Positions 21,144-21,811 of a stretch of 64,000 bases of DNA are shown in pieces (positions within the stretch are counted from its first letter, which is position 1; the number at the start of each line of letters is the position of its first letter). The notes below the pieces were generated by a model that saw only the letters and a program-made list of their open reading frames with translations, was not told the origin of the DNA and searched no databases. This DNA is from Melioribacter roseus. Lineage in GTDB: Bacteria; Bacteroidota; Ignavibacteria; Ignavibacteriales; Melioribacteraceae. Location of the stretch: contig DYLP01000001.1 in the NCBI GenBank assembly GCA_020722005.1, positions 1 to 64,000 on the forward strand, written 5' to 3'. A program made the translations under genes and the position numbers.

Positions 21144-21413
21144 TCAGTCGATGGCTGCTATCGAATGTATCTGGAAAGATTTTAAGAATCTTTTGATACC
21201 GCGTTTTTTGATTTTGAGTTCAAGATAAATGGCGTCGGATTTAGAGATGAATTCTTTAAGGAAGACAAGCTTCCAAGGTTTGCCAGATTTAGTAGATTTA
21301 GTTTGGCCGGAGTTGTGTTCATTTAAACGTCTTTGGATGTCGTTGGTAGAACCGACATAGAATCTGTTCTTTGAAGAGCTGAAAATAATGTAAGTAAAAA
21401 AAGTTTCCATCAT
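21144..21413 (-). CDS. GIY-YIG endonuclease domain protein, copy 2 of the tandem
   Basis: An 89-residue single-domain GIY-YIG protein (COG2827/YhbQ type, often misnamed UvrC): TYIIFSSSKNRFYVGSTND carries the YII...YVG core, followed by catalytic-type Arg in IQRRLNEHNSG and Glu in YLELKIKKRG. The first 78 residues are identical to the neighbouring copy because the DNA lies in a perfect repeat; the last residues (KSFQIHSIAAID) are unique. The ATG starts 7 nt after the CCA of the tRNA-like piece, leaving no room for a separate promoter. Role unknown. Confidence 0.85.
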   Translation of the reverse strand: MMETFFTYIIFSSSKNRFYVGSTNDIQRRLNEHNSGQTKSTKSGKPWKLVFLKEFISKSDAIYLELKIKKRGIKRFLKSFQIHSIAAID

Positions 21414-21445
21414 CTAAATTTGGTCGGGGTGGAGAGATTCGAACT
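21181..21445. repeat. 265-bp perfect direct repeat, copy A
   Basis: Identical base for base to 21494-21758 (offset 313). It contains most of the GIY-YIG gene plus the tRNA 3' end (CCA, acceptor strand and T-loop). Confidence 0.97.
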
Positions 21446-21481
21446 GTTGACCTTGGCGCCGGAGGCGCCACGCGCTAACCG
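21421..21481 (-). pseudogene. Chimeric partial tRNA between the two GIY-YIG genes
   Basis: Read on the minus strand, this has the 3' half of the D-arm (CGGTTAGCGCG), an intact 5-bp anticodon stem TGGCG/CGCCA with loop CCTCCGG, the variable loop AGGTC, the T-loop TTCGAAT and the acceptor end with encoded CCA. All spacings equal those of the neighbouring tRNA-Pro. The 5' acceptor strand is missing, position 33 is C rather than T, and the T-stem is broken (AACAG against CTCTC). It cannot fold a full cloverleaf, so it is a remnant, apparently a different tRNA joined at the T-loop to the tRNA-Pro 3' end. Confidence 0.72.
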
Positions 21482-21726
21482 ATATTGATGTCGTTTAAGA
21501 ATCTTTTGATACCGCGTTTTTTGATTTTGAGTTCAAGATAAATGGCGTCGGATTTAGAGATGAATTCTTTAAGGAAGACAAGCTTCCAAGGTTTGCCAGA
21601 TTTAGTAGATTTAGTTTGGCCGGAGTTGTGTTCATTTAAACGTCTTTGGATGTCGTTGGTAGAACCGACATAGAATCTGTTCTTTGAAGAGCTGAAAATA
21701 ATGTAAGTAAAAAAAGTTTCCATCAT
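21475..21726 (-). CDS. GIY-YIG endonuclease domain protein, copy 1 next to tRNA-Pro
   Basis: An 83-residue GIY-YIG protein identical to the other copy over 78 residues, ending in a unique tail (NDINIG) whose stop TAG is the TTAG of the tRNA-like piece. ATG codons at 21726 and 21723 lie 7 and 10 nt beyond the CCA of tRNA-Pro, with no SD between, so it must be transcribed together with the tRNA and released by 3' processing. Small GIY-YIG proteins of this type occur in several copies in many Bacteroidota; whether they act on DNA or RNA is not established here. Confidence 0.85.
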   Translation of the reverse strand: MMETFFTYIIFSSSKNRFYVGSTNDIQRRLNEHNSGQTKSTKSGKPWKLVFLKEFISKSDAIYLELKIKKRGIKRFLNDINIG

Positions 21727-21758
21727 CTAAATTTGGTCGGGGTGGAGAGATTCGAACT
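21494..21758. repeat. 265-bp perfect direct repeat, copy B
   Basis: Second copy of the repeat at 21181-21445. Its right end lies inside the T-arm of the functional tRNA-Pro gene. Absence of any mismatch means recent duplication or ongoing gene conversion. Confidence 0.97.
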
Positions 21759-21811
21759 CTCGACCTCTTCGTCCCGAACGAAGCGCGCTAACCGGGCTGC
21801 GCTACACCCCG
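21734..21811 (-). tRNA. tRNA-Pro (anticodon CGG)
   Basis: Complete cloverleaf on the minus strand: acceptor CGGGGTG/CACCCCG, D-arm with GGTTAGCGC, anticodon stem CTTCG/CGAAG around loop TTCGGGA (anticodon CGG), T-arm GAGAG-TTCGAAT-CTCTC, discriminator A and encoded CCA at 21734-21736. The body is 75 nt without CCA. Confidence 0.96.

Follow-up and report, generated by a model that had tools for sequence, protein, structure and literature searches.

Several described systems resemble, each in some respect, the small chromosomal cassette that is the subject of the current report. Ssn nucleases are associated with short repeated or palindromic DNA, and SLX1 is a nuclease that cuts branched DNA. 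In phages, SegB drives the tandem amplification of tRNA-Tyr together with segB, and its mapped cleavage motif is RAWTSGAAC (PMC13096335). Both the GIY-YIG fold and the occurrence of GIY-YIG nucleases beside tRNAs in phages (SegB) are already known. Literature searches for tRNA-linked GIY-YIG genes in bacteria gave just the phage paper on SegB (PMC13096335), and the 2006 survey of the GIY-YIG superfamily, searched for tRNA and related terms, contained no tRNA gene linkage. The combination of features reported here had no description in the searchable literature, outside of which lies the likeliest place for one, the Ssn nuclease paper; it has the look of a minimal selfish element, not described before, that has made tRNA genes its home.

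The tRNA-Pro locus

The window, by which we mean the whole stretch of 64,000 nucleotides of Melioribacter roseus DNA that was analysed, contains the locus in Table 1. An initial annotation of the letters alone had read its minus strand as tRNA-Pro, a GIY-YIG ORF, a tRNA-like piece and a second GIY-YIG ORF, and this order is confirmed by ARAGORN, the ORFs and the coordinates. The perfect repeat of 265 bp in the same annotation proved exact as a core of 265 nt, but the repeat is longer, extending over 273 nt at 99-100% identity. Each nuclease start was also correctly placed close behind a CCA, with an ATGATG that begins 7 nt after it; the missing Shine-Dalgarno sequence is uninformative, because Bacteroidota-type bacteria generally use none.

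Table 1. Features of the tRNA-Pro(CGG) cassette in the window
Feature	Position	Strand	Basis
Intact tRNA-Pro(CGG), CCA encoded	21734..21811	-	ARAGORN
GIY-YIG nuclease ORF, unit 1, 83 aa	21475..21726	-	Pfam PF01541, E=5e-20
Pseudo-tRNA-Pro: tRNA positions 18-28, palindrome, 46-78	21421..21481	-	
17-nt palindrome TGGCGCCTCCGGCGCCA in place of anticodon arm (29-45)	21454..21470	-	
GIY-YIG nuclease ORF, unit 2, 89 aa	21144..21413	-	Pfam GIY-YIG match
Direct repeat copy 1	21494..21766	-	
Direct repeat copy 2: tRNA 3' part, linker, nuclease	21181..21453	-	

The unit of the cassette is about 310 nt in size, and both ORFs of the locus match the Pfam GIY-YIG family with E of about 1e-20. The cassette is flanked by one intact tRNA and by at least one partial copy of the same tRNA. 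The intact tRNA-Pro is the sole tRNA that ARAGORN calls here and has no other close copy in the genome; it is the single functional copy at the locus. The tRNA-like piece proved to be a shortened tRNA-Pro that runs from the end of the D-loop directly into a perfect palindrome, TGGCGCCTCCGGCGCCA, whose 15-nt core is found once in the whole genome. The TAG stop codon of the unit 1 nuclease falls within the D-loop sequence GGTTAGCGCG of this fragment. In unit 2 the C-terminus of the ORF diverges past the end of the repeat, and the pseudo-tRNA that would lie downstream has been lost. An assembly artefact is unlikely, since a genome of the same genus, assembled as a single contig, shows this arrangement too, its units having diverged.

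On another contig of the same genome, tRNA-Cys(GCA) is directly followed by a third nuclease (40% identical), and this in turn by a tRNA-Cys fragment with the palindrome CCCGCCTTAGGCGGG and by the start of a second nuclease copy that is interrupted by a run of N. This cassette (L004 1-350) stands at the end of its contig, C5, and cassettes in tandem are a probable cause of breaks in assemblies. The sequence CCCGCCTTAGGCGGG is confined to the tRNA-Cys locus, where it occurs a second time upstream of tRNA-Cys. With exact palindromes limited in this genome to the two tRNA cassettes, a dispersed palindrome of the REP type was rejected; in other relatives, 5-36 sites of one related hairpin type were found.

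Linkage of the nuclease family to tRNA genes

Nuclease matches occur in 52 of 58 order-level relatives, at 0-17 per genome and often in evenly spaced arrays. Our set of 182 related loci was drawn from these relatives and from named genomes of Bacteroidota, Ignavibacteria, Marinimicrobia, Cloacimonadota and CPR; ARAGORN was run on the order-level loci as well as on 80 named loci that came from a genome-wide scan, and most of all these loci have tRNAs beside them. A tRNA lies at most 500 nt away in 152 of the 182 loci (median distance 43 nt) and is co-directional with the nuclease in every one of the 152, which disposes of the concern in the initial annotation that homologues might never be found at tRNA 3' ends elsewhere. 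Sixteen isotypes are linked: Pro (54), Ser (29), Asp (13), Asn (13), Ala (8), Arg (6), Met (5), Val (5), Cys (4), Leu (4), Gly (4) and Lys (3), besides Tyr, Thr, Ile and His, in counts that are biased by the choice of loci through similarity to the window protein and a Pro-type alignment. By hand count in five complete genomes, 49 of 64 nuclease places adjoin a tRNA or tmRNA or belong to an array that begins with one, as against about 0.6 expected by a rough estimate based on an assumed 50 tRNA genes in each genome. An Rfam search of the loci lacking a tRNA gave tmRNA as the sole type of match. The nuclease follows tmRNA in L051 and, in a complete genome, in L285. The nuclease of L051 is itself followed by a 3' fragment of tmRNA with two mini-hairpins inserted at its T-loop.

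On protein trees built from 74 alignment columns, in which many forks are unresolved and near-identical array copies aid clustering, the isotype label changes 17 times among 126 copies (minimum 12; shuffled 61) and 32 times among 182 rows, one per locus (91 when shuffled). The nuclease clades follow tRNA isotype, a clustering that could alternatively arise by vertical descent at a fixed locus combined with many losses.

Such linkage bears on the very unlikely alternative that a tRNA region was passively duplicated in tandem, the nuclease gene being a bystander and the copies being maintained by gene conversion, with no mobility. The identical 265-nt cores do suggest recent conversion or duplication, the pieces of tRNA match the local tRNA, and arrays that lack the nuclease exist (see below); against this stand the presence of one gene family at 16 isotypes and tmRNA, in several phyla and always co-directional, and a patchy occupancy and inserted palindromes that would not be expected of a bystander.

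A single-domain nuclease

The AlphaFold model of the unit 1 nuclease (pLDDT 92.5) is a single GIY-YIG domain with no extra DNA-binding domain. Its best folds in the PDB are SLX1 and UPF0213 (1zg2, 1ywl), followed by UvrC and I-TevI, in agreement with sequence comparison, and the superfamily (PF01541) residues Y8, Y19, G21, R29, H33 and E65 are invariant. Model and comparison together identify the only protein of the cassette as a predicted single-domain nuclease of UPF0213/SLX1-like type. An SLX1-like activity on branched DNA would, we infer, suit tRNA-gene DNA in cruciform or hairpin form.

The GIY-YIG ORF is the sole gene of the unit, in which no tyrosine or serine integrase was found. The group I intron endonuclease model TIGR01453 scores 28.7 bits, below its cut-off of 56, and an intron or group I ribozyme is ruled out, the unit of about 310 nt being filled by the ORF with no room for one. 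Among 50,697 phage records there was no match, PHROG homing-endonuclease scores of the nuclease are weak, and the matches in viral contigs are distant and partial; with three weak plasmid matches besides, an origin from phages or plasmids was rejected, as was a defence system, for which PADLOC scores were marginal only.

Relatives of this nuclease are found in other settings. A sister GIY-YIG clade (L081, L069, L109, L112, L111, L044, L047, L070 and L113) is bounded by the inverted repeats CCCGTGAGATA ... TATCTCACGGG in inserts of 294-316 nt, too small for a known intron, which interrupt ORFs. The interrupted ORF of L081, L069 and L109 encodes a recombinase resembling integron integrases, and its two parts join in frame once the insert is removed; the insertion is at two distinct points, HS|FATHLL and SALT|QNQAL, the latter twice in one genome. 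Further GIY-YIG clades (L286, L287, L291, L293 and L294) lie in the same complete genomes between different, dispersed-looking palindromes (for example CACCCTGAGCGGAGTCGAAGG and GTCATTCTGAAGAATCT), an arrangement resembling the association of a nuclease with REP sequences.

Pieces of tRNA and their palindromes

Most arrays contain pieces of the neighbouring tRNA. In the 3'-type architecture, to which the window belongs, an intact tRNA is followed by the nuclease and a tRNA 3' piece; in the 5'-type (for example L012, L021, L035 and L078) a tRNA 5' piece and the nuclease precede the intact tRNA; and broken copies flank both sides at L008, L010 and L036. Tandem arrays reach 5-6 units in single-contig genomes. 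The arrays that were inspected have a single intact tRNA copy, the rest being broken, with extra near-complete copies in L068 and L089. Three nuclease-less arrays of palindrome-bearing tRNA pieces (L244, L245 and L246) are present in the complete genome G035: 11 units of about 67 nt each at tRNA-Asn, 4 units of 114 nt at tRNA-Pro(TGG) and 5 units of 90 nt at tRNA-Asp. At L102, six partial tRNA-Met copies stand in tandem, spaced by about 73 nt, upstream of a tRNA-Met that has the nuclease behind it. The pieces of tRNA match their own intact tRNA at 96.8% identity and the same tRNA of other loci at 86.8%, a closeness that indicates a local origin or conversion; local duplication or gene conversion fits the comparison better than import of a foreign tRNA end.

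In many of the arrays that contain tRNA pieces, a near-perfect palindrome takes the place of a tRNA arm or splits it, and does so at a recurrent point, which is the anticodon arm in Pro and the T-loop in others. Statistics on the palindromes were taken from the inserts of 12-30 nt that separate such pieces, 97 in number. Perfect arms of at least 5 bp begin at the extreme ends in 54 of them, where 0.2 would be expected. Stem positions stay paired through several types of base pair, and the conserved stems carry variable loops. The commonest positions are 28|46 in Pro (with Val 28|46, Lys 25|43 and Gly 28|44 besides), 50|59 or 51|60 in Asp, 57|61 in Asn, and the T-loop point GTTC|GAAT. Eight of ten pure T-loop inserts are exactly at GTTC|GAAT, and the insert at the tmRNA locus is at the equivalent point, GGTTC|GACTCC. 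Read as its reverse complement, the SegB motif RAWTSGAAC becomes GTTCSAWTY, which is the T-loop sequence (PMC13096335). About 31 of 81 palindrome loci have inserts outside the two main positions (anticodon arm and T-loop), mostly in the D-loop region of Ser, Arg and Leu, and the position clusters moderately on the nuclease tree (21 changes versus 38.7). At L138 (15-190 and 540-640) the palindrome runs into tRNA sequence (GGTGCCCCGATTAGATCGGGGCACC), with tRNA bases as its right arm, a hint that palindromes might originate by fold-back copying at a break.

Filled and empty loci

A comparison of tRNA loci among relatives, proposed with the initial annotation, revealed filled and empty tRNA-Pro loci side by side, even in one genus. 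By nuclease content, 9 of 30 tRNA-Pro(CGG) loci are filled and 21 empty, one of the empty loci having an identical tRNA; L131, empty by this measure, holds a nuclease-less pseudo-tRNA with two palindromes. Within one genus, two genomes have the order tRNA-Pro, nuclease, palindrome-bearing tRNA piece and yajQ; a third has a filled locus whose contig stops inside the nuclease; and the fourth is empty, with tRNA-Pro, ATGAGTTTTT and yajQ. The ten bases of ATGAGTTTTT resemble the start of the nuclease and may be a relic of it. The tRNA-gene-targeting cassette that had been proposed is well supported as a pattern by these loci and by the linkage in 152 of 182; the proposed unit of a tRNA 3' end plus nuclease is incomplete, given the many mirror 5' versions, the palindromes in broken copies and the arrays without nuclease.

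Between the window and a genome of the same genus, unit 1 gives dN=0.083 and dS=1.61, and by this estimate (dN/dS about 0.05) its nuclease is under purifying selection. The second nuclease unit of that genome is frameshifted and the third truncated, from which extra copies are judged to decay.

A proposed homing-type selfish cassette and its alternatives

We lean towards the reading, somewhat more probable than its converse, that these loci represent a minimal homing-type selfish cassette in tRNA genes, for which tRNA sequence serves both as target and as homology arm and which is amplified in tandem; the window cassette would then, with the same modest confidence, be one copy of a large family of such elements. 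An isotype-specific nuclease would cut or nick its own type of tRNA gene at a fixed place, the anticodon arm or the T-loop depending on the clade, its substrate possibly being single-stranded or cruciform DNA. Recombinational repair from a cassette-bearing copy, in which the conserved tRNA sequence to either side would act as homology arms, would install the cassette and leave a tRNA remnant, whose palindrome would mark and destroy the place of cutting. Further rounds of cutting and out-of-register repair might multiply the unit in tandem, as for phage SegB; the nuclease would be expressed by readthrough of transcription that starts at the tRNA promoter; and selection would keep one intact tRNA copy as surplus nuclease copies decay and vanish.

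The tRNA is the putative target of the nuclease. Consistent with the homing model are the linkage and co-orientation, isotype clades, patchy presence, tandem arrays, and the signs of selection and decay, together with the palindromic inserts, a T-loop insert point in the sequence whose reverse complement is the SegB motif, and the SLX1/UPF0213 folds. Some observations argue against it. The supposed target is still present in the intact tRNA, so that self-cutting would have to be weak, structure-dependent or tolerated. The symmetry of the palindromes is more perfect than a blocker of the cut site would need, a nuclease with no separate DNA-binding domain would have to read a site of 30-40 bp, and the position of the palindrome clusters just moderately on the tree, with about 31 of 81 loci off the main positions.

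An unlikely alternative, which nevertheless deserves real weight, is a site-specific single-strand nuclease like Ssn, for which the palindromes would be binding or cleavage sites, the enzyme would modulate DNA exchange on single-stranded DNA (transformation, replication), and tRNA loci would offer a safe and well-transcribed address. The UPF0213 type of the nuclease would suit this, as would conserved palindrome stems (with several pair types) and variable loops at many copies, the other GIY-YIG clades between dispersed-looking REP-like palindromes in the same genomes, and the Neisseria Ssn family, which reportedly has repeated targets. The palindromes of the window's own genome are found only at the two tRNA cassettes and are not dispersed, however, and this alternative by itself would leave the isotype-specific clades and the tRNA pieces on both sides unexplained. 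Less likely again, we would regard as doubtful a distinct class of mobile element in which a nuclease of 80 aa, with no DNA-binding domain, finds the gene of one isotype through the structure or transcript of a pseudo-tRNA that a palindrome marks (cruciform- or RNA-guided), non-autonomous arrays that lack the nuclease being moved in trans.

A function at the level of RNA, in which the nuclease would be a regulator or a toxin-like module that processes or silences transcripts of the tRNA or pseudo-tRNA, is very unlikely. In its favour, tRNA and nuclease are probably co-transcribed, since they are co-directional and the nuclease starts a few nt past the tRNA 3' end; against it, the nearest folds are DNA nucleases, and a selfish nature is suggested by the many copies, their arrays in tandem and how often they are lost. 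We find it harder still to believe that the small GIY-YIG protein binds a pseudo-tRNA transcript (a hairpin with tRNA-homologous flanks) as its guide to the cognate tRNA gene, despite a nuclease without DNA-binding domain, the co-directional structured pseudo-tRNA near many copies and the match of its flanks to the local target tRNA, given that to our knowledge no GIY-YIG protein is RNA-guided, that palindrome sequence and position vary so that there is no common scaffold, that clades follow isotype, as expected if the protein itself reads the target, and that the window pseudo-tRNA folds no better than shuffled sequences.

If the homing-type reading is true, a common and overlooked selfish element exists in many environmental genomes of the Bacteroidota group and some of CPR, which would be among the smallest known and would live in tRNA genes that are essential, yet leave them working. 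Such an element would account for recurrent annotations of small "GIY-YIG nucleases" near tRNAs, for tandem tRNA pseudogenes and for some assembly breaks, and would be a cellular counterpart of the phage SegB amplification. The naturally differing tRNA-gene specificities of such tiny nucleases might also reveal how a bare GIY-YIG domain picks its target.

Comparison with known systems

Like the ICEs, islands and prophages that integrate at tRNA genes, the cassette uses a tRNA gene as its address and leaves tRNA 3' duplications; unlike them, it has no integrase, has a unit of about 310 nt that is always on the same strand, and is inserted also at the 5' side, the anticodon arm and the D-loop. 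With REP sequences and their RAYT transposases it shares short palindromes linked to one small nuclease-like protein, but the enzyme is unrelated and the palindromes are within tRNA copies, not dispersed in their own genome. It resembles Ssn and UPF0213 proteins (1zg2, 1ywl) in having one small GIY-YIG domain of the UPF0213 type; the associated sequence differs, since it is a palindrome-bearing copy of the local tRNA gene and no dispersed genomic repeat, and in the window's own genome no dispersed target was found, the palindromes being at the two tRNA cassettes only.

The cassette is also like SegB and the other GIY-YIG homing endonucleases that T-even phages carry as freestanding genes (PMC13096335), in which a nuclease gene likewise stands beside tRNA genes, with many isotypes involved. 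Cleavage sites in tRNA genes, a motif that corresponds to the T-loop, and tandem amplification of tRNA plus nuclease are all described for SegB (PMC13096335), and a gene next to its putative target, with occupied and empty alleles, is represented by the 9 filled and 21 empty tRNA-Pro loci; a SegB orthologue or presence in phages was not found among the 50,697 phage records. Palindrome-bearing tRNA copies and nuclease-less arrays are features of the cassettes that the accessible sections of the SegB paper (PMC13096335) do not mention. Unlike SegB, the cassette is chromosomal, its nuclease is a bare domain of 75-100 aa, and its clades are isotype-specific.
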